From a virus, in IMG/VR virus record IMGVR_UViG_3300028133_000021, positions 1 to 31,434 of that record: 31,434 nt of DNA. One strand, 5' to 3'. This document shows, in pieces, positions 11,279 to 21,435 of the stretch. Position 1 is the stretch's first letter. Each line of letters opens with the position of its first letter. Position numbers and translations under genes: made by a program. Below the pieces are notes generated by a model that searched no databases, was not told where the DNA came from, and worked only from the letters and a program-made list of their open reading frames with translations.

Positions 11279-11355
11279 ATAAGTCACTTAGTATCAACGA
11301 GTTAGGAGCGAGCGGGGGGTACTCCGCCGTAAGTCGTTGAGTATCAATGAGTTAT
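11279..11355. repeat. 77-bp composite palindromic repeat, copy R1
   Basis: Two 27-nt imperfect palindromes (11279-11305 and 11329-11355) separated by a 23-nt GC-rich spacer. The left arm is GTAA(C/G)TCGTT(G/C)A, the centre is GTA, and the right arm is its near-complement ending GAGTTAC or GACTTAC. This copy lies between the plus-strand terminator and the tRNA. Confidence 0.85.
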
Positions 11356-11371
11356 GGCATGTTAGAGAAGG

Positions 11372-11444
11372 TAGGGGCGGAGGGACTTGAACCCTCGACC
11401 TGCCGATTATGAGTCGGATGCTCTAACCACTGAGCTACACCCCC
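11372..11444 (-). tRNA. tRNA with CAT anticodon (Met or Ile2)
   Basis: A 73-nt cloverleaf. The acceptor GGGGGTG pairs with CGCCCCT with two G-T pairs, the D arm is GCTC/GAGC, the anticodon loop is CTCATAA, the T arm is GAGGG TTCAAGT CCCTC, and the discriminator is A. CCA is not encoded (CCT follows). The first anticodon-stem pair is a T-C mismatch. The CAT anticodon means elongator Met, or Ile if C34 is converted to lysidine; it lacks the three G-C pairs of initiator tRNA. Confidence 0.9.
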
Positions 11445-11456
11445 TTCTGTTAGATG

Positions 11457-11666
11457 TTAGTAATCCTCTTCTTCTAAACGATCATCCTCACAGCACTCAC
11501 ATAAAAAACTGTTTTGATTTATTAGATCTTGGGTAGTGCCACTCATGAAGCGGACAATGTCGCCGTTGGGTGTGAAGTATCTTACCTTGTCGCTGTTAAC
11601 GTCTTCAACCGATGCCTTGTCATAGCACTCGCTGCATTTTACGTGCATTCCTATTACTTTAGTCAT
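11457..11666 (-). CDS. small zinc-binding-type protein
   Basis: A 69-residue protein with two cysteine pairs, CSEC (11-14) and CECC (56-59), enough for one zinc site. Between them is a beta-rich stretch (VRYFTPNGDIVRFMSG). The tail is acidic. The start is preceded by an A-rich leader (AACAAAATAAAACAAATG) shared almost exactly with the next gene upstream. The stop lies in a TAACATCTAACAG stretch. The function is unknown. Confidence 0.65.
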   Translation of the reverse strand: MTKVIGMHVKCSECYDKASVEDVNSDKVRYFTPNGDIVRFMSGTTQDLINQNSFLCECCEDDRLEEEDY

Positions 11667-11671
11667 TTGTT

Positions 11672-11875
11672 TTATTTTGTTATCTTCATCATATCAAGTG
11701 CCAGATTATCAATGTGCTGATACAACTCGTCACCATCACAGGACGAGAATGGTTCCCATGCGTTATCCTCTAAAAAAAGATTTTGTTTATTGTGATCCCA
11801 ATCAAAGAATTCCTCTGGTATTGGATCACATAGATAATGAGCAGATGATCTTATTATTGCTTGTTCTTTTGTCAT
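11672..11875 (-). CDS. hypothetical small acidic protein
   Basis: A 67-residue acidic protein (EEFFDWDHNKQNLFLEDNAWE) of unknown function in a run of small minus-strand genes. Its leader has the same AACAAAATAAAACAAATG sequence as the gene downstream, in place of a Shine-Dalgarno site. Confidence 0.6.
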   Translation of the reverse strand: MTKEQAIIRSSAHYLCDPIPEEFFDWDHNKQNLFLEDNAWEPFSSCDGDELYQHIDNLALDMMKITK

Positions 11876-11880
11876 TTGTT

Positions 11881-11982
11881 TTATTTTGTTAGGTTAGAAC
11901 ATTCTGGACATACGCCATCCTCGGATGCTCCGCAATTTTCAAAGCTGTCTCCCATATCGTAGTTACAATTTTCGCAATTCAT
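11881..11982 (-). CDS. 33-residue zinc-ribbon-like peptide
   Basis: The frame encodes 33 residues beginning MNCENCNYDMGDSFENCGAS, with C3/C6 and CPEC near 25-28. The two CxxC pairs make a minimal zinc knuckle. It fills the gap between two called genes, starts after CTAACAAAAC and ends in CTAACAAAATAA. It is short, so the call rests on the cysteine pattern and the tight packing. Confidence 0.55.
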   Translation of the reverse strand: MNCENCNYDMGDSFENCGASEDGVCPECSNLTK

Positions 11983-11993
11983 GTTTTGTTAGA

Positions 11994-12338
11994 TTAGAAC
12001 CATGCGGAGTAGTAAACCTTCTCACCCTTACTTAAGAGTTTACCAGCTTCTTTTATGAAGTCAAGTGTTTCTTGCTTTCTGTGTGGACATTTCCTTGAAT
12101 CGCCACCATAGAAGAAGCCGTGAGTCTCTGGTAGTTCGTCATTGGCAACAGCAGCCTCTAGCTGTTCGATGTCATGAGCGTTAAGCTCAAGCTCTGAACA
12201 GTTCCATTCTCCTGCGCCTCCTTTGTCTACCCATAGGTTCTGCATCCATCCATCAAGCGCATTGTGTTTGCGCCAGTCTTGAATCGTGTTGCATTCTCCG
12301 TCCTTATCTTTAGTGTATGCTTGCTGGTCTAATCCCAT
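11994..12338 (-). CDS. conserved phage protein of the MGLDQ type
   Basis: A 114-residue protein beginning MGLDQQAYTKDKDG, with WRKHNALDGWMQNLW at about 22-36 and GFFYGGDS near 74-81. This layout matches a small family of uncharacterised proteins common in marine and other phages. Its role is unknown. Confidence 0.65.
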   Translation of the reverse strand: MGLDQQAYTKDKDGECNTIQDWRKHNALDGWMQNLWVDKGGAGEWNCSELELNAHDIEQLEAAVANDELPETHGFFYGGDSRKCPHRKQETLDFIKEAGKLLSKGEKVYYSAWF

Positions 12339-12351
12339 TTTTTATTTTGTT

Positions 12352-12414
12352 CTATTTGTTTGTGTTTATTATTACTATCGCTAAGAAGATCATCAAAGCT
12401 ATTGATTCGATCAT
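12352..12414 (-). CDS. possible 20-residue membrane peptide
   Basis: The frame encodes MIESIALMIFLAIVIINTNK: nearly all hydrophobic, with an acidic start and a polar end, as in tiny single-span membrane peptides. It lies between the GP88-like gene and the MGLDQ gene. There is no ribosome site to support it, so it is tentative. Confidence 0.3.
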   Translation of the reverse strand: MIESIALMIFLAIVIINTNK

Positions 12415-12423
12415 GGCGGTATT

Positions 12424-13137
12424 TTAGCAGGAAACTGGCTCGATGACAAACCCCGATTTATCTTTTTTCGCAAGCCCCTTTTCAATGAGACCAACGACAA
12501 CGCCTTTCTTGTCCAGGAAACGCAAGTCACTCTCGTCTCCGTCTATTACTTCGTAGCCGTTCCATGTAGTAGGTAAGGAACCACGGAAAACGATTGCGAC
12601 GTTTCCACCTTGTGCTAGTATCATTGCAAGCTCAAGGTCTGAGCTTTCTTCACTGCGTGAAAGCGTTAGAGAATAGTTTTCTGGTAACTCACCCGCAAGG
12701 AACTGTTCCATGCGTTTTCTGCTCTTGGTATAGTCGTAAAAGATTTGATCTTTAAACCGATCAAAGACATTCAAGCCTCCAAAGTGTTTCATGTTTTCCC
12801 ACGGCAAGTCACTCGTTAGATTGAGACGGAAGCAAGATTGCATTTCCTTACGTGCGGCAGACTTAACAGCTTTTGTTATCTCGTCAGCAAGTTGAGTCAT
12901 GAAGTTTTCACGATCCTTAAAGATACGAATTGTTTTCTTTATTCTCGCGTCTTGAACATTCTTCATTGCTCCGCGTCCTGCAGTATTCAAACAAGCCATT
13001 GCACAGCCCTTGCTTGCCCACCTGCATACGTTGTAGCCGCTTACTTTACTTGGCGCAAGGTGAATGCCGAATGTTTTCCATCCTTTCTTTTCTCCCTTGG
13101 CAGTCTTACTATTTCCAGTGTTGAGTATCTTTTGCAT
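12424..13137 (-). CDS. GP88-like phage protein
   Basis: A 237-residue protein resembling the phage 'gene product 88' family known from mycobacteriophages. The opening runs through GIHLAPSKVSGYNVCRWASK and ends with GCAMACLNTAGRG. The conserved cysteines C38, C45 and C49 could hold a metal or Fe-S cluster. The middle carries RLNLTSDLPWEN and FYDYTKSRKR, also typical. The molecular function of the family is not known. It is transcribed from its own promoter with the ATG exactly 6 nt after the -10. Confidence 0.75.
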   Translation of the reverse strand: MQKILNTGNSKTAKGEKKGWKTFGIHLAPSKVSGYNVCRWASKGCAMACLNTAGRGAMKNVQDARIKKTIRIFKDRENFMTQLADEITKAVKSAARKEMQSCFRLNLTSDLPWENMKHFGGLNVFDRFKDQIFYDYTKSRKRMEQFLAGELPENYSLTLSRSEESSDLELAMILAQGGNVAIVFRGSLPTTWNGYEVIDGDESDLRFLDKKGVVVGLIEKGLAKKDKSGFVIEPVSC

Positions 13138-13143
13138 ATCAGT

Positions 13144-13172
13144 ATTTTATCAGTTTGGGTTAATTAAGTCAA
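13144..13172 (-). promoter_or_regulatory. sigma70-like promoter, leaderless
   Basis: Reading the minus strand: TTGACT (13172-13167), a 17-nt spacer, TAAAAT (13149-13144), then 6 nt to the ATG at 13137. Confidence 0.75.
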
Positions 13173-13181
13173 TGGTTATTT

Positions 13182-13496
13182 TTAGAGGTTAAAGCCTAGT
13201 GTGTCAAGAGCTGCGCTATGAGATACTTTGCCCTTACTTGAACCATCCAACTCTTGCCAGTTCTGAATCTTACCCTTAGCATCAGCAGGGAAAATGAATG
13301 TCTCAGAGCCTCCGTGGTCAAGTGCTAGATCAATAGAAGACACAACAACAAATTTTGTTTGGCGTTTTCTTTTAGTCTCTCCGCTTGTATCTATAAATCT
13401 AACGGGTGAAGATAGCTTGTAGAGTTTGGCATCCCCTCTGAAGTCTTCAGATACGTCTTTGATTAGCTCGGCAGTGTTTGGCTTTGTCCTTGTCAT
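13182..13496 (-). CDS. hypothetical conserved phage protein
   Basis: A 104-residue protein with a beta-rich middle (FVVVSSIDLALDHGGSETFIF) and a helical C-terminal end (SHSAALDTLGF). The pattern recalls small proteins found in many cyanophages and pelagic phages, without known function. It starts 6 nt after a TATAAT box. Confidence 0.6.
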   Translation of the reverse strand: MTRTKPNTAELIKDVSEDFRGDAKLYKLSSPVRFIDTSGETKRKRQTKFVVVSSIDLALDHGGSETFIFPADAKGKIQNWQELDGSSKGKVSHSAALDTLGFNL

Positions 13497-13502
13497 GGCT
13501 GC

Positions 13503-13530
13503 ATTATAGCAGAATGGCGAACCGTAGCAA
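13503..13530 (-). promoter_or_regulatory. sigma70-like promoter, leaderless
   Basis: TTGCTA (13530-13525), a 16-nt spacer, TATAAT (13508-13503), then 6 nt to the ATG at 13496. Confidence 0.8.
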
Positions 13531-13580
13531 GTGTTTTTTAATCTTTTTTAATTCTTTTTCTAACAACGTTTTTATCATGC

Positions 13581-13657
13581 GTAACTCGTTCATTATCAAT
13601 GACTTACGAGCGGGTGCCTCCCGCCGCGCCGTAACTCGTTGAGTATCAACGACTTAT
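13581..13657. repeat. 77-bp composite palindromic repeat, copy R2
   Basis: 27-nt palindromes at 13581-13607 and 13631-13657 with a 23-nt GC-rich spacer. It lies between the terminator at 13678 and the promoter at 13503. Confidence 0.85.
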
Positions 13658-13677
13658 GACTGTTAGATGCTGTTAGT

Positions 13678-13707
13678 AAAAAACCCCCGCCCTGTTAGGG
13701 GCGAGGG
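13678..13707 (-). terminator. rho-independent terminator with CTAACA loop
   Basis: On the minus strand, CCCTCGCCC and GGGCGGGGG form a 9-bp stem with one G-T pair, a loop of CTAACA and six T. It ends the DUF932 transcript. The loop is the same hexamer that is over-represented through this block. Confidence 0.85.
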
Positions 13708-13726
13708 CTGCGCTTCGCTGGAGTTG

Positions 13727-14494
13727 TTAGGCTGGCAGCACCAGACCAGTCTCGTTGTCGACTGTTAGGTTTGGCGAGTGACCTGCGACGCGGTCAAACA
13801 CGCTCTGCATATTCATAGTTCTGCTAGGCAACTTGGACATGTCGCTGCCCTTGAGGTGCTCAGTGCAAGCGTTGTAGAGGTTCCACAAGTGGTTGCCCTT
13901 GAACTCCGCGTGGCGAGGTGCTTCGAATTCTTTCGCGGTCTTGTAAACGTCACGGGCAGAGAATGCCTTAGCGTCTACAAGATCAATTAGGAGATCCGAT
14001 GCTTGCTCACGGTTGATCTCGGTCCGCTGGTAAGCGCCGATGCGTTCAGCCATGTCAGTCCAGTGAGACGTAACGCGAGACATGGCGGTAGACAGAACAC
14101 GCGGCAGATCTGTTAGAATGCGCGAGGTGTGACGACGGGCAAGCTTCACATCAGAAGAGAAGCAAAGATTATCACAGACAAGCATCTGGTTACCGATACA
14201 GATAGCAGAGGCAAATGCCTTGTCATGACTGTTACGGAGACCAAGGACAAGATTTCGATCATCGCCCTCGATGCCCTTACCAGTGATAGCAAAGCCGCCG
14301 AAGTAACGAAGGTCACCGCGTGACAAACCATGCTCTTCTTCAGTGATAGAAAAACCAGCACGGTCAAGAGCTTTGCGGGTATAGTCTACCAGCGTCGCGT
14401 GTGGGATTGGAGTGTGGGTATCAGTTCCTGCTGGCGTGTGGAGCTTAGCAAGATCAGTGGCTTCGATTGGGCTTTTGGACATTATTAGTGACAT
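13727..14494 (-). CDS. DUF932 family phage/plasmid protein
   Basis: A 255-residue protein matching the DUF932 family of phage, plasmid and mobile-element proteins. The hallmark is LVLGLRNSHDKAFASAICIG followed by MLVCDNLCF at about 106-113. Helical segments follow (RVLSTAMSRVTSHWTDMAER). The molecular function is unknown. Unlike its neighbours, it has a 47-nt leader behind a TATAAT promoter. An in-frame ATG four codons downstream (MSKSP) is an alternative start. It looks markedly more GC-rich than the plus-strand genes. Confidence 0.8.
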   Translation of the reverse strand: MSLIMSKSPIEATDLAKLHTPAGTDTHTPIPHATLVDYTRKALDRAGFSITEEEHGLSRGDLRYFGGFAITGKGIEGDDRNLVLGLRNSHDKAFASAICIGNQMLVCDNLCFSSDVKLARRHTSRILTDLPRVLSTAMSRVTSHWTDMAERIGAYQRTEINREQASDLLIDLVDAKAFSARDVYKTAKEFEAPRHAEFKGNHLWNLYNACTEHLKGSDMSKLPSRTMNMQSVFDRVAGHSPNLTVDNETGLVLPA

Positions 14495-14547
14495 AGTATT
14501 ATTTTTTTCTAGTTTGGATTAAGTGCGCCTTTCGTGACTGCAAAGAC

Positions 14548-14576
14548 ATTATAGCCTAAAAGTTTCTATTGGACAA
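14548..14576 (-). promoter_or_regulatory. sigma70-like promoter of the DUF932 gene
   Basis: TTGTCC (14576-14571), a 17-nt spacer and TATAAT (14553-14548). The expected start near 14541 gives a leader of about 47 nt, an exception to the leaderless pattern here. Confidence 0.7.
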
Positions 14577-14610
14577 GCACTTTCGTCATAAAAAACGATT
14601 TATTTTCACA

Positions 14611-14630
14611 TGTTCCACGGAATGTTCCAC
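14611..14630. repeat. paired TGTTCCAC repeat, copy I1
   Basis: TGTTCCAC at 14611-14618 and 14623-14630 (12-bp period), upstream of the DUF932 promoter. Each octamer equals a half-site of the bacterial parS sequence, but here the two are in direct orientation. Confidence 0.8.
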
Positions 14631-14662
14631 GCAGCTGGGATTTAGAAAACGCCAAATAGACT
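14623..14662. repeat. 40-bp intergenic direct repeat, copy A
   Basis: About 40 bp from the second TGTTCCAC through CAGCTGGGATTTAGAAAACG to CCAAATAGACT. It recurs at 16183-16222 with one difference. Both copies lie between a TGTTCCAC pair and a palindromic repeat, so a whole intergenic unit was duplicated. Confidence 0.85.
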
Positions 14663-14687
14663 GTTAGACGTTTCTGTTATTACAAGC

Positions 14688-14801
14688 CATTAAGTGTCAA
14701 TGAGTTACGTTTCTGTTAGGGTACGTAAGTCACTCAGTATCAACGACTTACGGCGGGGCGGGGGGCCACAGCTCCTAACTCGTTCAGTATCAATGAGTTA
14801 T
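14688..14801. repeat. palindromic repeat cluster, copy R3
   Basis: A partial unit (14688-14708) is followed by the 77-bp composite 14725-14801 (palindromes 14725-14751 and 14775-14801, spacer 23 nt). The last palindrome contains the stop codon of the 53-residue gene on the minus strand. Confidence 0.8.
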
Positions 14802-14959
14802 GTAGTGGTTGAGCGATCATCTATACGATCCTGTCGACCTTGAGAAAACCAAGCGTCCCATTGAACCTTCTGCTCTTCTGTTAGAACACAAAGACAAGGC
14901 ACGGTGATTCCATGCCAACCGCAATCATAAGATATATCTATAACTTCGTCGTCACTCAT
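14798..14959 (-). CDS. hypothetical protein, paralog of the gene at 16332
   Basis: A 53-residue protein (MSDDEVIDISYDCGWHGITV...). The core YDCGWHG-x-T-x-PCL-x-x-LTEEQK-x-x-WD-x-WF aligns with YDCGFYR-x-T-x-PCL-x-x-LTDDQK-x-x-WD-x-WF of the gene at 16332. The conservation of two Cys and three Trp or aromatic positions shows both are real. The function is unknown. The stop codon TAA is provided by a palindromic repeat. Confidence 0.65.
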   Translation of the reverse strand: MSDDEVIDISYDCGWHGITVPCLCVLTEEQKVQWDAWFSQGRQDRIDDRSTTT

Positions 14960-14964
14960 AATTG

Positions 14965-15087
14965 TTAATCGTATTTATTATCTTCACAGATAGCCTTAGC
15001 CATTGCCAGGAAAGACATTACCACTAAAGTTGTTAGAGTGGTGAATAATGTTAGAAAAGCCAACGCGTGAATTATTGTATGAATCAT
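14965..15087 (-). CDS. small membrane protein, 40 aa
   Basis: The frame MIHTIIHALAFLTLFTTLTT continues LVVMSFLAMAK, one strongly hydrophobic span of about 28 residues, then a charged tail (EDNKYD). It starts 1 nt after the stop of the next upstream gene, within CTAACATG. The tight stop-start packing supports it. A holin-like role is possible but unproven. Confidence 0.5.
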   Translation of the reverse strand: MIHTIIHALAFLTLFTTLTTLVVMSFLAMAKAICEDNKYD

Positions 15088-15088
15088 G

Positions 15089-15214
15089 TTAGTAGTATTT
15101 ATCTTCTTTCATTTCTTCCAGTAAGTCTTTGATTAAACAAAGCACAAACATAACTACGCTAACCACCCAAAAACAAATGAGTGTTATGCCTCCGATTATT
15201 AGTATTTCTTTCAT
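15089..15214 (-). CDS. small membrane protein, 41 aa
   Basis: A hydrophobic span (ILIIGGITLICFWVVSVVMF) is followed by a charged amphipathic tail (KDLLEEMKEDKYY). It overlaps the upstream gene by an ATGA and is followed after 1 nt by another 40-residue membrane protein, so the two may act as a pair. The function is unknown. Confidence 0.5.
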   Translation of the reverse strand: MKEILIIGGITLICFWVVSVVMFVLCLIKDLLEEMKEDKYY

Positions 15215-15369
15215 GATGGTGATAGTATTTCTAATTCTGGTTCGTTGTCAAAGATATCAACGAGAAAGGGGAATGGTAAGTCTTCTAAACTAAACATTAT
15301 TTCTTGTTGTCTATCAAAGAGCTTGTCCCTGTCTTCTTCTATTATTGTTATTTGTATTCTGGTTTGCAT
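15211..15369 (-). CDS. hypothetical small acidic protein, 52 aa
   Basis: The frame MQTRIQITIIEEDRDKLFDR... starts 4 nt after the stop of the 94-residue gene, with a GGAGAA Shine-Dalgarno upstream, and ends in an ATGA overlap with the membrane-protein gene. It is acidic with a beta-strand start. The function is unknown. Confidence 0.6.
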   Translation of the reverse strand: MQTRIQITIIEEDRDKLFDRQQEIMFSLEDLPFPFLVDIFDNEPELEILSPS

Positions 15370-15373
15370 ATTA

Positions 15374-15658
15374 TTATTCTCCTATAAACATTCCTCCGCC
15401 GAAAAAGCCTTCGTGGCTTACCTCTCTCGCCTTAGCCTTGATATTCTTAGCTGTGCCTCTGACAAGTGAGTCGTGGTGATTGATGTATGGTTCTGTTAGT
15501 GTTACCACCTTTCCGTATTCCTCTAGAGATGTAGTGATGAACATACCTAGCTTGATCTCCTTGCCATTGGTTATTTCAGCGGCTTTGAGTAGATCATTGT
15601 ATTCGTCTTCTGTTAGCACGTTTTTTACATGCATTCTTTGGCTTTGTGCTTTTGTCAT
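15374..15658 (-). CDS. hypothetical protein, 94 aa
   Basis: A basic N-terminal helix (MTKAQSQRMHVKNVLTEDEY) is followed by a beta-rich middle (IKLGMFITTSLEEYGKVVTL) and a glycine-rich end (GFFGGGMFIGE). I prefer the ATG at 15658 to 15703 because GGGAGAAAAG lies just before it. The function is unknown; it heads a four- to five-gene minus-strand run. Confidence 0.6.
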   Translation of the reverse strand: MTKAQSQRMHVKNVLTEDEYNDLLKAAEITNGKEIKLGMFITTSLEEYGKVVTLTEPYINHHDSLVRGTAKNIKAKAREVSHEGFFGGGMFIGE

Positions 15659-15704
15659 ATCTTTTCTCCCTGCGTTGTTTAAGCTGTTTGGATTACAATT
15701 CATA

Positions 15705-15884
15705 TTATGGGCAGATGGCTGTTACTTGTTCTGTTGAAAAACCTACTTCCTCACCATCCTCGGTAGTTCCCCAGAATGGGCGATGTGGGTTGTTAGGATA
15801 TACTTCATCGACTATCACGGGTTGACCGCAAACGATAACCATAGTCCCAACCTTAATGGAGTTAGTGAGTTCTGTGTCTTTCAT
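15705..15884 (-). CDS. small beta-rich protein, paralog of the gene at 15937
   Basis: A 59-residue protein (MKDTELTNSIKVGTMVIVCG...). The stretch IKVGTMVIV aligns with IEVGSMVIV in the next gene upstream, as do VDEVYP / VEEVWY and the acidic GTTEDGEEV / GIDQDGHEEE. Small SH3-like barrels have this look (V-x-G-x-x-V-x-V). The longer frame to 15956 is rejected because it covers the promoter; the ATG at 15884 is 6 nt after TATAAT. Confidence 0.65.
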   Translation of the reverse strand: MKDTELTNSIKVGTMVIVCGQPVIVDEVYPNNPHRPFWGTTEDGEEVGFSTEQVTAICP

Positions 15885-15890
15885 GGTTAC

Positions 15891-15918
15891 ATTATAGCAT
15901 AATGAACTAGCGAAGCAA
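15891..15918 (-). promoter_or_regulatory. sigma70-like promoter, leaderless
   Basis: TTGCTT (15918-15913), a 16-nt spacer, TATAAT (15896-15891), then 6 nt to the ATG at 15884. Confidence 0.8.
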
Positions 15919-15936
15919 TACCTTTTTAATCTTTTT

Positions 15937-16113
15937 TTAGTTGCTGATTGCGTCAATGCGGCTCATGTGGATTTCTTCTTCGTGTCCGTCTTGGTCAATC
16001 CCGATGATGGTATTTTCTGAATACCAGACTTCTTCGACGTAGTAAGAAGTCAATCCGACGATCACCATCGAGCCGACTTCTATCTTTTGTTGTGGTAGTG
16101 TTTCCGTTTTCAT
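15937..16113 (-). CDS. small beta-rich protein, paralog of the gene at 15705
   Basis: A 58-residue protein (MKTETLPQQKIEVGSMVIVG...). It is a tandem paralog of the 59-residue product downstream, and its promoter is also similar, sharing AAAAAGGTATTGC at the -35 end. The start at 16113 is set by the promoter 6 nt upstream; the longer frame to 16245 runs through promoter and repeats. The function is unknown. Confidence 0.65.
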   Translation of the reverse strand: MKTETLPQQKIEVGSMVIVGLTSYYVEEVWYSENTIIGIDQDGHEEEIHMSRIDAISN

Positions 16114-16119
16114 GGCTGC

Positions 16120-16147
16120 ATTATACCAAATTGGAGCAAATAGGCAA
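16120..16147 (-). promoter_or_regulatory. sigma70-like promoter, leaderless
   Basis: TTGCCT (16147-16142), a 16-nt spacer, TATAAT (16125-16120), then 6 nt to the ATG at 16113. Confidence 0.8.
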
Positions 16148-16169
16148 TACCTTTTTAATCTTTTTTTAA

Positions 16170-16190
16170 TGTTCCACAGAAATGTTCCAC
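16170..16190. repeat. paired TGTTCCAC repeat, copy I2
   Basis: TGTTCCAC at 16170-16177 and 16183-16190 (13-bp period), about 23 bp upstream of the -35 of the 58-residue gene. Confidence 0.85.
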
Positions 16191-16222
16191 ACAGCTGGGA
16201 TTTAGAAAACGCCAAATAGACT
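16183..16222. repeat. 40-bp intergenic direct repeat, copy B
   Basis: The second copy of the element at 14623-14662, nearly identical, again placed between a TGTTCCAC pair and a composite palindrome. Confidence 0.85.
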
Positions 16223-16236
16223 ATACTGTTAGATGT

Positions 16237-16313
16237 ATAAGTCATTGAGTATCAACGAGTTACGAGCTGGCTGGAGGTGCCCCGCCGTAAGTCGTTCAAT
16301 ATCAACGAGTTAC
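16237..16313. repeat. 77-bp composite palindromic repeat, copy R4
   Basis: Palindromes 16237-16263 and 16287-16313 with a 23-nt GC-rich spacer. It lies between the stop of the 66-residue gene and the next promoter. Confidence 0.85.
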
Positions 16314-16331
16314 GTAGGGTGTTAGAAGCTG

Positions 16332-16532
16332 TTAGTCGTAGCCGTAGATAGACCCCATAACATGGTAGTCGGCAATCGCGGAGGCGGCTTCGTCACGCTC
16401 GTCAGTCTGACCCTCGGCAAACCAGCGATCCCAGATCTCCTTCTGGTCATCTGTTAGGTGAGCGAGGCAGGGCGGTGTCGTGCGATAGAAACCGCAGTCA
16501 TAGGCATGGTCTTGAATCTCTTGATCAGTCAT
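16332..16532 (-). CDS. hypothetical protein, paralog of the gene at 14798
   Basis: A 66-residue acidic protein. Residues 11-42 (YDCGFYRTTPPC then LTDDQKEIWDRWFAEG) match the 53-residue product at 14798. The C-terminal extension (ASAIADYHVMGSIYGYD) is absent from that paralog. It has no promoter of its own: it follows the 51-residue gene across two hairpins and is preceded by CTAACACT-ATG. The function is unknown. Confidence 0.65.
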   Translation of the reverse strand: MTDQEIQDHAYDCGFYRTTPPCLAHLTDDQKEIWDRWFAEGQTDERDEAASAIADYHVMGSIYGYD

Positions 16533-16556
16533 AGTGTTAGGTAGTGGTTAGAGGTT

Positions 16557-16575
16557 GCTCCCCCCGTGGGGGAGC
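16557..16575. promoter_or_regulatory. GC-rich intergenic hairpin
   Basis: GCTCCCCC (16557-16564) and GGGGGAGC (16568-16575) make an 8-bp stem with a 3-nt loop. A second hairpin (GGGTGC/GCACCC) lies at about 16580-16610. There is no T run on either strand. A similar GTTGCTCCC...GGGAGC hairpin occurs at 17943-17959. These may stabilise or process the transcript between two cotranscribed genes. Confidence 0.55.
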
Positions 16576-16618
16576 GGTTAGGGTGCTAGTAGGCGGGTTG
16601 AGCCGCACCCTGCGGAAA

Positions 16619-16774
16619 TTAGTGAGCGTCATCGAGGAACGGCTCGGAGGTGTCAGCCTCGTTACAAGCTGCGATCCAATCCTGGTAATCCTGAACATCG
16701 AAGTCAGAGGGGAACTGAGCATCGAAGTTGGCTTGATCGGCAGCGGTAGCGGTGGTAGTGTTGTTCGTTTCCAT
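16619..16774 (-). CDS. hypothetical small acidic protein, 51 aa
   Basis: An acidic protein (METNNTTTATAADQANFDAQ...) with a Thr/Ala-rich N-terminus and DVQDYQDWIAACNEAD at about 27-42. The start at 16774 is 6 nt after TATAAT; the longer frame to 16861 covers the promoter. The function is unknown. Confidence 0.6.
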   Translation of the reverse strand: METNNTTTATAADQANFDAQFPSDFDVQDYQDWIAACNEADTSEPFLDDAH

Positions 16775-16780
16775 GACAGA

Positions 16781-16808
16781 ATTATACCAGAATCTCGCTA
16801 ATAGGCAA
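16781..16808 (-). promoter_or_regulatory. sigma70-like promoter, leaderless
   Basis: TTGCCT (16808-16803), a 16-nt spacer, TATAAT (16786-16781), then 6 nt to the ATG at 16774. Confidence 0.8.
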
Positions 16809-16840
16809 CATCTTTTTGCATCTTTATGCACTTTTTTTTG

Positions 16841-16861
16841 TGTTCCACGGAAATGTTCCAC
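16841..16861. repeat. paired TGTTCCAC repeat, copy I3
   Basis: TGTTCCAC at 16841-16848 and 16854-16861 (13-bp period), about 32 bp upstream of the -35 at 16808. Confidence 0.85.
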
Positions 16862-16887
16862 ACGCGCCTGTTAGATTTATTGCTTAC

Positions 16888-16964
16888 ATAACTCGTTCAG
16901 TATCAACGACTTACGGCGCGGCTGGGGGTGGGGGCTCGTAACTCGTTGAGTATCAATGACTTAC
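16888..16964. repeat. 77-bp composite palindromic repeat, copy R5
   Basis: Palindromes 16888-16914 and 16938-16964 with a 23-nt GC-rich spacer. It lies just downstream (minus-strand sense) of the tmRNA-like RNA. Confidence 0.85.
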
Positions 16965-16984
16965 AGAGCTTTTTTCTGTTAGAG

Positions 16985-17054
16985 TGGTGGAGCGTAGGGG
17001 ATTTGAACCCCTGTCTCTAACAGCAAACTGTTAGATCGAATACCAGTTCGCCCC
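16985..17054 (-). ncRNA. tmRNA-like RNA lacking a tag reading frame
   Basis: A 70-nt RNA on the minus strand. The 5' part GGGGCGAACTGGTATTCGAT matches the start of bacterial tmRNA (GGGG...CTGG-TTCGA), including the stemless D-arm analogue. The 3' part has a T arm (AGGGG TTCAAAT CCCCT), the acceptor strand ACGCTCC, discriminator A and an encoded CCA. The acceptor pairs G1-C72, G2-C71, G3-U70, G4-C69, C5-G68, G6-C67; G3-U70 with A73 is the alanine identity signal shared by tmRNA and tRNA-Ala. Where tmRNA has P2, the tag frame and pseudoknots, this RNA has only CTAACAG-TTTG-CTGTTAG, a 7-bp hairpin. It cannot encode a tag. A normal tRNA is unlikely, since there is no D stem and no 7-nt anticodon loop. 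Confidence 0.7.
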
Positions 17055-17069
17055 TGTTAGATGTTAGGT

Positions 17070-17108
17070 AGCTCACCCCACGATGCCTAGGAGATCGTGA
17101 GGCAAGCT
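17070..17108 (-). other. 15-bp hairpin upstream of the tmRNA-like RNA
   Basis: On the minus strand AGCTTGCCTCACGAT pairs with ATCGTGGGGTGAGCT over 15 continuous pairs (three G-T) around a 9-nt loop. It lies between the stop at 17134 and the 5' end of the RNA at 17054. It could be an RNase processing signal that frees the RNA, or part of a larger structured RNA. Confidence 0.75.
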
Positions 17109-17133
17109 ATTCCCAACACTACTTAGAAAACTG

Positions 17134-17406
17134 TTAGGCGACTACCTCAATTCCTGCTAGATGAAGTGTGCGATACTTCTCAAAGCCGTGATCGTCAATG
17201 TCGGTGGCTAAGACCTTGAGGCAGCGTTTACCATTCTTCTTAGCGTTCCAAACATCCTCGACAGCGTGGATTTTAAAGGTGCGCTCCTTGTCTCTGCGAA
17301 CGCTAGACTTCCCTTGGTTGATATATCGAACAGTTCGATCCTTGAGAAGGTTTGCGATTTCGAGGACGGAGGCGGTTGTGCTTGTGTTGGTATTTGCGAT
17401 TTGCAT
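17134..17406 (-). CDS. hypothetical basic protein, 90 aa
   Basis: A basic protein with a Ser/Thr-rich N-terminus and then a likely small beta barrel: TVRYINQGKSSVRRDKERTF, then DVWNAKKNGKRCLKVLATDIDDHGFEKYRTLHLAGI split across about 40-88. The start at 17406 is fixed by a TATAAT 6 nt upstream; the longer frame to 17490 runs through the promoter. Its transcript probably continues into the hairpin and tmRNA-like RNA. The function is unknown. Confidence 0.65.
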   Translation of the reverse strand: MQIANTNTSTTASVLEIANLLKDRTVRYINQGKSSVRRDKERTFKIHAVEDVWNAKKNGKRCLKVLATDIDDHGFEKYRTLHLAGIEVVA

Positions 17407-17412
17407 AGTTAT

Positions 17413-17441
17413 ATTATAGTTGGTTTTTGCGGTTGAGTCAA
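17413..17441 (-). promoter_or_regulatory. sigma70-like promoter, leaderless
   Basis: TTGACT (17441-17436), a 17-nt spacer, TATAAT (17418-17413), then 6 nt to the ATG at 17406. It may also transcribe the tmRNA-like RNA. Confidence 0.8.
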
Positions 17442-17503
17442 TCCCCTTTTTGAGGATTGTGAGATTGTTTAGTGCTTTTAAAAAGTCCATTTGTTTTTAG
17501 TGG

Positions 17504-17764
17504 TTAAGACAAGCCTAGAGCATTGCCGTATTTGTCGAAGGTATTGCGGACAACCTTAGTTATTCCAGCAGAACCCCAGCGCATATTGGAGCGGAACTCT
17601 TTGACAGTTTCGCCATCAGAGTTTTTCACAAGGATTCTCCAAGTGCCAGTTGAGTTTCCTTCATCCCAAGTGAAACCTCGCTTTGCTTCAAAAGCGTTTA
17701 GGGTATCAAGATCAACGTGAAGGGTTTCGAACCAAGGAGTTTTTTTTGTTTTAGTATTGTTCAT
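17504..17764 (-). CDS. hypothetical protein, 86 aa
   Basis: A soluble protein (MNNTKTKKTPWFETLHVDLD...) with a Trp/Gly-rich beta region (GFTWDEGNSTGTWRILVKN) and a helical C-terminus. Unlike most neighbours it has a long leader, about 240 nt from the promoter at 18010. The function is unknown. Confidence 0.6.
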   Translation of the reverse strand: MNNTKTKKTPWFETLHVDLDTLNAFEAKRGFTWDEGNSTGTWRILVKNSDGETVKEFRSNMRWGSAGITKVVRNTFDKYGNALGLS

Positions 17765-18003
17765 AGTAGTGTTTTCTATTTGTTAATGGTTTAAGTTTTG
17801 GAAAGCTGATTGCTCATAAAGGAGTTGCACCTTCGTCTTCCTCTCCTACCGCTTGTGCCGTAGTATCCTCGGATTTCTCGGAGTATGTGAGAGGCTATCT
17901 TACTTGCTAGAAGAATGAGCCGTTTGTAGTGTTTTGATTGTTGCTCCCCCTTAGGGAGCTTTTGGGAAGTCTTAAGTTGGTTGAACCCTTCCCTCTCTTG
18001 CTT
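17765..18003 (-). promoter_or_regulatory. long structured 5' leader of the 86-residue gene
   Basis: About 239 nt between the predicted start near 18003 and the ATG at 17764. In order it has GGGAAG/CTTCCC, a GCTCCC/GGGAGC hairpin (17959-17943), a long-range CCTCTC/GAGAGG pairing enclosing CTAC/GTAG, and an 8-codon frame (MSNQLSKT) shortly before the gene. It could be a regulatory leader or a separate small RNA. It matches no riboswitch class that I recognise. Confidence 0.4.
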
Positions 18004-18009
18004 GACTAT

Positions 18010-18037
18010 ATTATAGCAGAAAACTCGATTTTTACAA
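18010..18037 (-). promoter_or_regulatory. sigma70-like promoter with long leader
   Basis: TTGTAA (18037-18032), a 16-nt spacer and TATAAT (18015-18010). No start codon lies within 6-9 nt, unlike the leaderless set. Confidence 0.7.
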
Positions 18038-18073
18038 GCATATTCGACCTAAAAAAACGTTTTTTTTCGCTTT

Positions 18074-18100
18074 TTAACTCATTGGTTATCAACTAGTTAA
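18074..18100. repeat. single degenerate 27-nt palindrome, copy R6
   Basis: TTAACTCATTGG and its partner CTAGTTAA flank a TTATCAA centre. It is diverged from the family consensus and includes the stop codon of the endolysin gene. Confidence 0.65.
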
Positions 18101-18662
18101 AATGTTCCACAGAATTGTTCCACAGAGCTAGTTCGAATTTCCTTCGCCTTTCTAAACCTTTTCGCACTTTGCCGCCAGCCATGCGGTACATTGGCAGCAC
18201 CTCAGAAACGCTCTGATAATTTCCATCGTTTAAACGCCCCTCCTGTGAGACAAGCTGATATAGTGCGCCCCTTCCGCAGTTGTATGTGAAACTTGTTAGA
18301 GCAGCAAGTTGATTATCTGTTAGAGGGACTTTGACTATAGAGAGAACCACATCTTTGTATTCGTGCAATTCCTTTTCTAACAAGTCGCTTGCTTCCCTCT
18401 CGGAGATTACGCCCTTAGATACTGCAATGCCTGTGTGACCATAGCCAATAGTTCGCTTGCCACCGCAACACGTATACGCCTCTGCGCGATAGCTCTCGAA
18501 ATGTTTTACGCCTTTTAGCATATCATACCAAGCCTTGTTTATGTTAGGCGCAAGCACCGCGCTGTTAGGTTTTACCAGTACAGGTCTGTTAGGCTTCACC
18601 AGCACAGGTGTGTTAGATAGGGCTGATGTAGTAAGGGCGATTAGAAGTAGTAGCGTTTTCAT
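18093..18662 (-). CDS. secreted endolysin, GH24 lysozyme type
   Basis: A 189-residue muramidase of the T4/P22 lysozyme type, which cleaves the glycan strands of peptidoglycan. It carries the triad spacing E-x8-C-x5-T: E56, C65 (in place of Asp, as in some phage lysozymes) and T71, within HFESYRAEAYTCC then GKRTIGYGHTG. The later motif LTDNQLAALTSFTYNCGRGA is typical. The N-terminus is a signal peptide (KTLLLLIALTTSALS), implying Sec export or a signal-anchor form, followed by PVLVKPN direct repeats. The start is 6 nt after TATAAT. Unusually, the last dozen or so codons are made of the TGTTCCAC pair and a palindrome. Confidence 0.9.
   Translation of the reverse strand: MKTLLLLIALTTSALSNTPVLVKPNRPVLVKPNSAVLAPNINKAWYDMLKGVKHFESYRAEAYTCCGGKRTIGYGHTGIAVSKGVISEREASDLLEKELHEYKDVVLSIVKVPLTDNQLAALTSFTYNCGRGALYQLVSQEGRLNDGNYQSVSEVLPMYRMAGGKVRKGLERRRKFELALWNNSVEHFN
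18103..18123. repeat. paired TGTTCCAC repeat, copy I4, inside the endolysin gene
   Basis: TGTTCCAC at 18103-18110 and 18116-18123 (13-bp period). On the minus strand it encodes the endolysin tail WNNSVEH. It also lies 66 bp upstream of the -35 at 18037. Confidence 0.85.
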
Positions 18663-18668
18663 GCCCTA

Positions 18669-18697
18669 ATTATACTCTAACAGTTCAGGTTTGTGAA
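18669..18697 (-). promoter_or_regulatory. sigma70-like promoter of the endolysin gene, leaderless
   Basis: TTCACA (18697-18692), a 17-nt spacer, TATAAT (18674-18669), then 6 nt to the ATG at 18662. Confidence 0.75.
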
Positions 18698-18724
18698 GCT
18701 TTTTCTTTGCTTATTTTACCCCAT

Positions 18725-18844
18725 GTAAGTCCTTCAGTATCAACGAGTTACGATCTTTCTAACAGTCATAAGTCACTCATTATCAACGAGTTACGGCCCC
18801 TCGGGGGGTGAGGCGCCCTAAGTCGTTGAGTATCAATGGGTTAC
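18725..18844. repeat. palindromic repeat cluster, copy R7 (three units)
   Basis: Units at 18725-18751, 18768-18794 and 18818-18844. The last two form the standard 77-bp composite (spacer 23 nt); the first spacer is 16 nt and contains CTAACAG. It lies between the methyltransferase terminator and the endolysin promoter. Confidence 0.85.
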
Positions 18845-18866
18845 AGAGGTTTTTCTGTTAGATGGC

Positions 18867-18900
18867 AAAACCCCGCCCCCCACACTACTAGGGGACGAGG
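18867..18900 (-). terminator. rho-independent terminator
   Basis: On the minus strand CCTCGTCCCC pairs with GGGGCGGGG(GG) over 10 bp with two G-T pairs and a loop near TAGTAGTGT, followed by TTTT. It ends the unit that includes the methyltransferase. Confidence 0.75.
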
Positions 18901-18932
18901 CACAATTACCACTATGAAAAAGCTGTTAGATG

Positions 18933-19457
18933 TTAGATGAGCGTGGTGACGTATAGACCTTGATGCTCACCCTTGAGGTTGTCTGTTAGAGTGGCATAGC
19001 CATTGTCGTCTGCTGCTGCTCTAACGTATTCATGCAGTGCGTCTATGTCGAGGCTCATCTTCCTTGGTTGGCTTGGGTAGTTCCACACTATACGTGTGCC
19101 TGACTGAGCAAAGCGCATGATGCTGGCTAGTGTATCCTCTAACTGATCGCCTGTCTCTTGGACGTTCAACACGTTAGACACAAGGATCACTGAGTATGTA
19201 TCATTAGAGGTAGCATTAGGCACGGATAGATCATAGCCATCAATGCTATACTCTTGTGCGCTTAATCTGTTAGACCAGTAGTTATCCTTACCACATCCGA
19301 AGTCTAACACATCATCCTCATGCTTAGTGATAACGTGATCTAGTGCATAGTGATATACTCTAGCCTTAGGCGTGAAGTTCTTACGGTATGTCTTGGTGCG
19401 TGAATCATTGTGTGCTTGCCACATAGCACCGCCCCAGCTTTTAGGTTCTTCTGTCAT
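18933..19457 (-). CDS. class I SAM-dependent methyltransferase
   Basis: A 174-residue protein with the Rossmann methyltransferase motifs: motif I VLDFGCGKDNYW (about 50-61), an acidic residue after strand 2 (IDGYDLS, 72-78), and a motif IV region YSVILVSNVLNVQ (about 88-100). The N-terminal stretch W-x-H-N-x-S-R-T-K-T-Y is typical of small phage methyltransferases of this type. The substrate (DNA, RNA, protein or small molecule) is not evident; it lacks an N6-adenine DPPY motif. It is preceded by CTAACAGC-ATG and is third or fourth in its unit. Confidence 0.8.
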   Translation of the reverse strand: MTEEPKSWGGAMWQAHNDSRTKTYRKNFTPKARVYHYALDHVITKHEDDVLDFGCGKDNYWSNRLSAQEYSIDGYDLSVPNATSNDTYSVILVSNVLNVQETGDQLEDTLASIMRFAQSGTRIVWNYPSQPRKMSLDIDALHEYVRAAADDNGYATLTDNLKGEHQGLYVTTLI

Positions 19458-19468
19458 GCTGTTAGGTG

Positions 19469-19693
19469 TTAGTAGTTGACGTATTCCATGACTGTATCAT
19501 AACGGAACTGACCATCGTCATTCATTTGGTCTAGCTCTTCATCGGTAGCCATGCGACCTTCGACCTTGGCTGTCATGATGTAAGCATCGCAGTAGTCGGG
19601 GTAGTCGCGATGGTCTACGCCGTCAATTTGGATGTCTTCGATTGGGGCGGTATATGCTCCTCTGTCGGAGTGATTGAATGTGAATTGATTCAT
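19469..19693 (-). CDS. hypothetical small acidic protein
   Basis: A 74-residue acidic, Tyr/Asp-rich protein (DGVDHRDYPDYCDAYIMTAK) of unknown function, 11 nt upstream of the methyltransferase gene. A TATAAT lies 4 nt before its ATG, but with no good -35. It may be an internal promoter or chance. Confidence 0.65.
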   Translation of the reverse strand: MNQFTFNHSDRGAYTAPIEDIQIDGVDHRDYPDYCDAYIMTAKVEGRMATDEELDQMNDDGQFRYDTVMEYVNY

Positions 19694-19715
19694 AGTAATT
19701 ATATTCTGTTAGTGG

Positions 19716-20000
19716 TTAGTAGTGATTAGTGCGGGTTGGCTCGTTAGCGAGTAGGATACAAGCCTTATTGATGTCCCCATGTGTGAAGCGTTCTCCGTTT
19801 ATGGTTATGTAGTATCCACGGCATGAGACGGCAGAGAAGTTGCCAGATTTAAAGTAGACAGTGGCAGACCATCCAGCCTTATCATCATGGATAGATCTCT
19901 CAACGTGTGAGAAGGTAGGATACCTGCGGAAGTCAAATGCTGTCATGCTATTGTATGCGAGGTGGAAGGCGTTGAGCGGTGGTGTAGTGTATGCTTTCAT
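19716..20000 (-). CDS. hypothetical protein
   Basis: A 94-residue protein with a beta-rich middle (WSATVYFKSGNFSAVSCRGYY then ITINGERFTHGDIN) and a hydrophobic-helical end (ACILLANEP). The function is unknown. It lies 35 nt after the 69-residue gene and is likely cotranscribed. Confidence 0.65.
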   Translation of the reverse strand: MKAYTTPPLNAFHLAYNSMTAFDFRRYPTFSHVERSIHDDKAGWSATVYFKSGNFSAVSCRGYYITINGERFTHGDINKACILLANEPTRTNHY

Positions 20001-20035
20001 AGTGATTTTCTTTCTGGTTATATTTTACAGTAATT

Positions 20036-20245
20036 CTAGTTGCCTTGCAAGATGTTTCGACACTTATTTTCAGCATCTCTTTTAGCCTTCATGACCATCT
20101 CACGCTCACGCTTGATCTGGAACTGACGCTCACGCTCACGCTGACGCTCAAGATTCTTGTTAGCGTTGGCGACCATCTCAGTGAGGATGTGCTGAACGTT
20201 AGGATTAGGAACTGGTGAAAGTGATGTAGTGTTTCTCTCTTGCAT
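20036..20245 (-). CDS. hypothetical protein with long charged helix
   Basis: A 69-residue protein whose C-terminal 45 residues form a highly charged single helix (NLERQRERERQFQIKRERE), built from near-tandem (R/K)ERE repeats. The start at 20245 is 6 nt after TATAAT; the longer frame to 20302 covers the promoter. It probably oligomerises or binds nucleic acid; the function is unknown. Confidence 0.65.
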   Translation of the reverse strand: MQERNTTSLSPVPNPNVQHILTEMVANANKNLERQRERERQFQIKREREMVMKAKRDAENKCRNILQGN

Positions 20246-20251
20246 GGTTGT

Positions 20252-20279
20252 ATTATACCACCAGAGCCGAAAAATGGAA
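20252..20279 (-). promoter_or_regulatory. promoter with consensus -10, weak -35, leaderless
   Basis: TATAAT (20257-20252) lies 6 nt before the ATG at 20245. The -35 (TTCCAT, 20279-20274) is poor, so an activator or extended contact may be needed. The TGTTCCAC pair and a palindrome lie just upstream. Confidence 0.65.
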
Positions 20280-20309
20280 GCAGAAACTTCATATATTATC
20301 ATCTTTTTT

Positions 20310-20332
20310 CTCGTTCAGTATCAACGACTTAC
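20310..20332. repeat. partial 27-nt palindrome, copy R8
   Basis: It has CTCGTTCA, the GTA centre and TCAACGACTTAC but lacks the first four nt of the left arm. It is a single copy at the start of the minus block. Confidence 0.75.
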
Positions 20333-20334
20333 AA

Positions 20335-20355
20335 TGTTCCACAGGAATGTTCCAC
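20335..20355. repeat. paired TGTTCCAC repeat, copy I5
   Basis: TGTTCCAC at 20335-20342 and 20348-20355 (13-bp period). It lies immediately beside palindrome R8. Confidence 0.85.
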
Positions 20356-20688
20356 GGGGAGGGGGGTTATTCTAGGCTTGCTGGAGAAAAAAAATCAAAG
20401 CTCGGGCATAGAAAATTGCTAATAGCATCTAACAGATGACCCTACCCCATTAAGTGAAAAAAAGTGTTAGATAACTGTTAGAATTCGCGGGGGGGAGGAT
20501 TTCCTCAGTTTATAAATGGTTATAGGATGTAGGTGTTTGCGGGGCTAGCGCCCCCACCCCCAATTAGTAGAATGGAGCATTAAAAAAAACCCATAGTATT
20601 TGTTAAGTGAAAAAAAAACGCGGGTAATTTTGTGTTAGGGGTAAATTGTGTTGTTGATAAAAAAAGAATATAATATATAATAATATAT

Positions 20689-21435
20689 ATGCCGCGATTA
20701 CTTTCAACACAGCTGACACTATTCGATAGTGTGGAAGACACATGGAGAAATAAATATTGCCCATGTTGTAGGGAAACTAGGAACATTGGCTCATTTTACA
20801 AAAACAAAATAAATAAAGACGGACACGATGCTTATTGTGAAGACTGTAGACGAGGTTTTTTAGCAAAAAAAAGAAAAGAAGAGAAAATTAAATACAAAAA
20901 AATAAAAAGGACCTTAAAGCGTGGAGATATTTCTCCAGAAGGTTTGATATTTTGGGGTTATGATTTACTGGCTAAGAATTTTGAACATTGGGTGGATAAA
21001 GATCGCTTTGAAGAAAAAAGAAATACAGTCAATAAAAGGCGCAACACTCGTTATCACGAAGACCAACTATATAGATTCAGAAAGACCTTAAGTAGAAGTA
21101 TTAATAAATCCCTAAGCAAATTGAATGGCTCTAAAAACGGCCAATCAAAATGTGATATAATAGGACTCAGCATCGTGGACTTTCAAAAATATTTGAGCGA
21201 TAGTTTTTCAGAAGGGATGTCATGGGAAAACAGAAGCGAATGGCACATTGACCACATCCTACCTCTTTCGGCGGCGAAAACACAAGAAGAAATCAAAATG
21301 TTATGGCATTACACTAATATGCGGCCAATGTGGGCTATTGACAACTTGGTAAAAGGAGGCAAATACTGCCCATTCGAGCTAGAAGAATTTTTCAAACGCA
21401 GAAAGCTTGAAATGGAACAATCTGATAAAAAATAG
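20689..21435 (+). CDS. HNH endonuclease with N-terminal zinc ribbon
   Basis: A 248-residue basic protein. Residues 24-53 hold two cysteine pairs (CPCC and CEDC), a zinc ribbon. A long basic linker follows. The C-terminal HNH domain contains EWHIDHILPLSAAKT (about 184-198; H186, D188, H189), WHYTNMRPMWAIDNL with Asn210 and Asn219, and KGGKYCP. This layout is common in free-standing phage HNH endonucleases, often homing enzymes that spread by cutting alleles lacking them. It sits at the junction between the minus block and the structural genes, as expected for an inserted gene. It could instead be a packaging-associated HNH nuclease, but it is not next to the terminase. Confidence 0.8.
   Translation: MPRLLSTQLTLFDSVEDTWRNKYCPCCRETRNIGSFYKNKINKDGHDAYCEDCRRGFLAKKRKEEKIKYKKIKRTLKRGDISPEGLIFWGYDLLAKNFEHWVDKDRFEEKRNTVNKRRNTRYHEDQLYRFRKTLSRSINKSLSKLNGSKNGQSKCDIIGLSIVDFQKYLSDSFSEGMSWENRSEWHIDHILPLSAAKTQEEIKMLWHYTNMRPMWAIDNLVKGGKYCPFELEEFFKRRKLEMEQSDKK

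Follow-up and report, generated by a model that had tools for sequence, protein, structure and literature searches.

The window analyzed here, the whole 31,434-nt stretch of the viral record IMGVR_UViG_3300028133_000021 (IMG/VR), carries on its minus strand a 70-nt gene for a shortened form of tmRNA, the bacterial RNA that rescues stuck ribosomes (Table 1). The gene is intergenic, with no overlapping ORF of 60 aa or more, and from 17054 to 16985 it reads GGGGCGA-ACTGGTATTCGA-TCTAACAG-TTTG-CTGTTAGA-GAC-AGGGGTTCAAATCCCCT-ACGCTCC-A-CCA. A first-pass annotation of this DNA had described a tmRNA 5' end, a T arm, G3-U70, A73 and an encoded CCA, all of which are present, and a 7-bp hairpin with a TTTG loop in place of the ~300-nt region that would hold P2, the tag frame and the pseudoknots; this hairpin is confirmed and gains a closing U-A pair, giving 8 bp around the UUUG loop. 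Resume codon, tag frame and pseudoknots are all missing, and just 20 nt of hairpin lie between the D-loop and the GAC linker. The RNA has the parts of a tRNA-like domain (TLD), namely an acceptor with G3-U70, A73 and CCA, a T arm and a stemless D-loop. Its acceptor forms the pairs G1-C72, G2-C71, G3-U70, G4-C69, C5-G68 and G6-C67, and position 7 is an A.A mismatch, so the stem has six pairs. The predicted fold is a three-way structure of acceptor stem, single central hairpin and T arm, with a folding energy of -25.5 kcal/mol (z = -2.84) that is matched by 1 of 200 shuffles.

Table 1. Coordinates of the RNA gene, its parts and neighboring features in the window
Feature	Position	Strand	Basis
Tag-less (TLD-only) tmRNA gene, 70 nt, encoded CCA	16985..17054	minus	Sequence; Rfam tmRNA end-to-end match; held-out model R3
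Acceptor stem 5' strand GGGGCGA, with G3 of G3-U70	17048..17054	minus	Sequence, fold
D-loop region ACTGGTATTCGA, tmRNA type (no D stem, TTCGA motif)	17036..17047	minus	Sequence
Closed P2-like hairpin TCTAACAG-TTTG-CTGTTAGA	17016..17035	minus	Fold; P2 covariation in 96 related RNAs
GAC linker 5' of T arm, tmRNA-like	17013..17015	minus	Sequence
T arm AGGGG-TTCAAAT-CCCCT	16996..17012	minus	Sequence, fold; T stem covaries across class
Acceptor 3' strand ACGCTCC (U70), A73, encoded CCA	16985..16995	minus	Sequence; G3-C70 and A3-U70 control scans
Small upstream gene, ATG at 17406 (longest ORF to 17490)	17134..17406	minus	ORF; synteny kept in two relatives
Predicted sigma70-type promoter TTGACT-17-TATAAT, upstream of neighboring gene	17413..17441	minus	11/12 consensus match

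Neighborhood and close relatives

The same RNA adjoins the same small gene in two IMG/VR contigs (L001 and L003), and alignment of the three shows identical stems between strongly different intergenic flanks, with differences within the RNA confined to the hairpin loop (TTTG to GAGG), an indel in the D-loop and a single base of the T loop. In these two related phages, the window RNA stands out as a conserved island. The small upstream gene, which is 88-89% identical in L175 and L176, has no PHROG match. The predicted TTGACT-17-TATAAT promoter is conserved in L001 and L003 and is likely to transcribe the 70-nt RNA too, which would probably be made behind the small gene and trimmed in the manner of a tRNA. 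The RNA is missing from all 49 other records whose terminases are 75-100% identical to that of the window (many of these records being fragments), which makes it an accessory, dispensable gene in this phage family.

The minus-coded block at 11300-20700 holds 29 minus-strand and 4 plus-strand copies of the heptamer CTAACAG, with a Markov expectation of ~0.9. These sites lie within and between genes, at stop codons and directly 5' of the tRNA-Met gene, flank the tmRNA-like gene on both sides and form one strand of its P2 hairpin. Partly palindromic TAACTCGTTNAGTATCAANGACTTAC repeats are found between genes at 16889-16969 of the window and elsewhere in the block, and L001 and L003 have them close to the RNA as well.

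Identity of the RNA

The sole ARAGORN call in the window is a tRNA-Met, the 70-nt RNA not being called, and in an Rfam scan at gathering scores no family, tRNA included, is reached at 16985-17054. At a relaxed threshold, the best family for the window RNA is tmRNA (RF00023), ahead of tRNA, which settles in favor of tmRNA the covariance comparison suggested in the first-pass annotation. On the whole record, RF00023 aligns end to end (model positions 1-374) at 39 bits (E 4.8e-16), with the entire mRNA-like domain deleted. The window RNA falls below the 47-bit gathering cut-off because the model expects the domain that is absent here; L001 (43.4 bits) also misses the cut-off, L003 (47.5 bits) passes, and so do 40/41 and 24/26 carrier records in two sets. 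A covariance model (R3), built from 82 other viral RNAs with the window RNA and its two near relatives left out, finds the window RNA at 59.8 bits (E 1.7e-10), with the tRNA-Met (24.8 bits) as its next-best match inside the window. R3 recovers the RNAs of the window, L001, L003 and the cultured phage Jojan60 at 59.8-66 bits, and scores tRNAs, permuted tmRNAs and tmRNA 3' ends at 48 bits or less. With the RF00023 and R3 matches, the tmRNA-like RNA proposed at this locus is borne out on the minus strand; it is a tmRNA cut down to its tRNA-like domain, and no chance resemblance.

An ordinary tRNA was rejected on structure, with no D stem and a hairpin of 8 bp and a 4-nt loop instead of a 5-bp/7-nt anticodon arm, as well as on the negative ARAGORN result, the lack of a tRNA match at gathering score and the Rfam preference for tmRNA. 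As a permuted two-piece tmRNA (RF04321), the RNA scores only 10.9 bits, and its 5' and 3' halves stand in standard order, 35 nt apart; it is of the standard-order type without coding sequence seen in phage DS6A. A permuted tmRNA has its two pieces joined by base pairing in P2 and in the acceptor. That the window RNA is one half of a split tmRNA, with its tag-coding piece elsewhere in the phage, is hardly credible: two-piece tmRNAs exist in phages (PMC9004378) and permuted forms were also found in this analysis, but P2 and the acceptor both close inside the 70-nt RNA, and a further tmRNA locus above the Rfam cut-off is found in almost none of the carriers.

Distribution and conservation

A strict, structure-neutral search pattern (tmRNA 5' end, TCGA, T loop, CTCCACCA and short spacing, with G3-U70 required) matched 69 stretches in IMG/VR, a lower bound for the window design since the pattern demands G7-A8 and leaves the window's own RNA unmatched. 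In most of the 69, acceptor positions 5-7 are fully complementary and a stem opens directly behind TCGA and closes directly ahead of GAC, features that the pattern leaves free. A broader IMG/VR scan, filtered for 6/7 acceptor pairs plus P2, gave at least 142 loci and at least 103 distinct RNAs of the tag-less design; among the matches listed, lengths are 62-88 nt and 105 sequences form roughly 20 clusters at 75% identity. A GGAC or AGAC linker, which the pattern did not demand, is present in 78 of the 105 related RNAs listed, and the TCGA (required by the pattern) and GG of the window D-loop are common to related RNAs. Nearly all members of the class are missed by ARAGORN.

In a 96-sequence alignment fitted to the structure, 94.0% of paired cells are formed versus 68.1% in shuffles, and the covariation score is 0.632 versus 0.146, falling to 0.11-0.14 when partners are slid by one base; all three stems (acceptor, P2-like and T) covary. 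Counting at fixed positions gives the same picture, with P2 pairs 1-4 formed in 51-52 of 52 sequences versus 23-39 in shuffles. The homologues thus answer the first-pass annotation's call for a comparison of related phages, with many compensatory changes in the hairpin and with G3-U70, the T arm and CCA all kept. Compensatory changes across three stems, and stems held constant in the window, L001 and L003 while the flanks diverge, argue against a functionless remnant, whether a tmRNA gene captured from a host or phage and now decaying, or a scrap left when a prophage integrated at ssrA. Integration at ssrA is known in phages, which can bear pieces of it (PMC9004378), and the gene is patchy within the window phage's family, but an integrase is found in just 2 of 41 carrier records and not in the window, and an att site would not supply both the 5' and 3' halves that are present here, so that we hold a remnant to be very improbable.

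Since the search pattern had required G3-U70, control scans of IMG/VR were run that altered just pair 3-70, and these returned 0 stretches for G3-C70 and 1 for A3-U70, versus 69 for G3-U70. The lone A3-U70 stretch is spurious, consisting of two adjacent unrelated tRNA-like pieces with an unpaired acceptor. The G3-U70 pair, which directs alanylation by alanyl-tRNA synthetase (AlaRS), appears to be kept by selection, and its strict conservation argues that charging matters, which simple titration of SmpB would not predict.

Applied to 257 Gb of cellular genomes, the same pattern gave 8 stretches, none convincing: their class-model scores are at most 45.5 bits versus at least 61 for genuine cases, several read as 3' ends of full-length tmRNAs, and only L170 has a full acceptor stem. 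An SmpB gene was found in 0 of 64 carrier records, which are metagenomic and often incomplete (10/10 bacterial controls were positive), so the RNA must rely on host SmpB, if on any. Two related large phage records (G005 and G034; L177 and L178) have a full-length tmRNA alongside the short form, and none of the other carriers tested has one above the Rfam cut-off. The full-length tmRNA in L177 and L178 is 376 nt long (tag ANNIVRFEDFTACGEELALAA) and the tag-less one 73 nt. Among the matches listed, a tRNA gene lies within 1 kb at 25 loci and is on the same strand in 25/25, and in L300 and L325 the tag-less RNA is within arrays of 26-28 tRNAs. When the window RNA and 49 related RNAs were compared by blastn against a phage collection, the only genuine match was in the cultured Stenotrophomonas virus Jojan60 (ON045087.1, 37722-37804; L179 663-745), where an unannotated 83-nt tag-less tmRNA sits in a cluster of tRNA genes located upstream of the DNA primase gene.

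Proposed function

Building on the observed identity, structure and conservation of the RNA and on its conserved alanine identity pair, we consider it moderately probable that the window RNA becomes charged and, bound to SmpB and EF-Tu of the host, acts as a competitor of the host's own tmRNA. Host AlaRS would charge it with alanine via G3-U70, host SmpB would bind its tmRNA-type D-loop and elbow, EF-Tu would bind the acceptor and T arm, and the charged RNA would compete with host tmRNA for SmpB and stalled ribosomes. Lacking both resume codon and tag frame, it has no means of adding a degradation tag, and the likely outcome would be suppressed host trans-translation during infection, with phage nascent chains and nonstop mRNAs spared tagging and decay. 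What is kept serves charging, EF-Tu and SmpB, and what is lost serves tagging, which makes a charged competitor the most economical reading. Mycobacteriophage DS6A has a TLD-only tmRNA that, according to two papers referring to Mao et al. 2009 (PMC4131195, PMC11915505), reportedly inhibits the endogenous tmRNA of E. coli, with which a charged competitor agrees (PMC11915505). The first-pass annotation had put forward an alanine-charged RNA that would enter stalled ribosomes without a frame to offer and so inhibit or modify host trans-translation; the DS6A RNA is a direct precedent for this idea. A similar molecule is reported to inhibit whether or not it can be charged, perhaps via SmpB titration (PMC4131195, PMC11915505); pure titration fits poorly here, as it is reported to be independent of charging and would not need a strict G3-U70 (PMC4131195). 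Counting against a charged competitor are the mismatch at acceptor position 7 in the window RNA, the dispensability of the gene within the window phage's family, the metagenomic and often incomplete nature of the records and, for a simple inhibitor, the odd presence of a full-length tmRNA with the short form in G005 and G034.

The main rival to a charged competitor is rescue without tagging, in which the alanylated RNA and SmpB would enter the stalled ribosome, take over the nascent chain (plus one alanine) and free the ribosome untagged, so that ribosomes are recycled and unfinished phage proteins protected; we give this a minor but real chance. G3-U70 and the encoded CCA suit such a charging-dependent role, and the tight same-strand linkage to phage tRNA genes among the matches listed suits a positive role in translation, but with neither a resume frame nor a stop codon, no route of peptide release is known. 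In mitochondria, tag-less tmRNA occurs together with an SmpB targeted to the organelle and is thought to be still helpful on incomplete mRNAs (PMC11915505), whereas the only reported test of the tag-less form gave inhibition (PMC11915505). A modified tRNA or alanine donor that acts away from stalled ribosomes and independently of SmpB, for example by sequestering EF-Tu or AlaRS, seems improbable: the acceptor, T arm and identity pair are as in tRNA-Ala and many copies lie inside tRNA arrays, but a tmRNA-type D-loop and a GAC linker (the latter not required by the pattern) are kept though a tRNA needs neither, and Rfam ranks tmRNA above tRNA. For the class as a whole, we lean slightly toward the view that phages commonly use tag-less, alanine-chargeable tmRNAs, under selection, to attack (or stand in for) host trans-translation; such RNAs would be present in many unrelated phages, overlooked by annotation, and would work at the ribosome in charged form instead of passively soaking up SmpB.

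Relation to known systems

Tag-less tmRNA is already known as a kind, from jakobid and oomycete mitochondria, two plastids and phage DS6A (PMC11915505), and by its anatomy the window RNA is a member. The jakobid and oomycete mitochondrial tmRNA (RF02544) and the ~65-bp Mallomonadaceae plastid tmRNA (PMC11915505) have likewise lost the mRNA-like region, but they are organellar and their SmpB comes from the nucleus. The DS6A form, which is in the tmRNA Website, is a single phage case, likened to the window RNA by description rather than by sequence alignment, and the window's phage is unrelated and probably marine. Bacterial one-piece tmRNA (RF00023) shares the acceptor with G3-U70, A73 and CCA, the D-loop and the T arm with the window RNA, which in contrast lacks the tag frame and pseudoknots and has P2 closed as a short hairpin. 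Full-length or permuted tmRNAs of phages (Bxz1 group, Melnitz; L088, L098 and L177) are phage-carried and often near tRNA genes like the tag-less form, but keep the tag frame (e.g. ANNIVRFEDFTACGEELALAA in L177).

What is new is the breadth, from one phage to more than 100 distinct viral sequences, together with the covariation and the evidence for selected alanylation; no published description of such breadth was found in a search that reached few subscription journals. A 2025 tmRNA database has 9 standard-order tag-less forms among 97,179 sequences and 79 phage tmRNAs in all, and its 'no CDS' entries comprise 72 permuted and 9 standard forms (PMC11915505). The tag-less form in phages, which previously rested on one mycobacteriophage, would rank among the common shapes of phage tmRNA, and its breadth suggests frequent phage tampering with host ribosome rescue. 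Since a covariance model can locate the gene and Jojan60 is a carrier in culture, phage manipulation of trans-translation becomes directly testable.

Additional observations

Members of 76-84 nt (e.g. L064, L046 and L019) have an internal loop and second helix within the P2 hairpin, AAAGCC...GGNA-like and kept across divergent sequences, which is a possible protein or ribosome contact. ARAGORN reports long tmRNAs in L009 (2976-3318) and L309 (5905-6228) that have implausible tags and end at a short tag-less tmRNA, and are likely false joins. The other blastn matches in the phage collection were mostly T arms of ordinary tRNAs or permuted two-piece tmRNAs. Permuted two-piece tmRNAs without tmRNA annotation are present in L181, L182, L183, L188, L189 and L191, which are phages of Xanthomonas, Alcaligenes, Stenotrophomonas and Pseudomonas.
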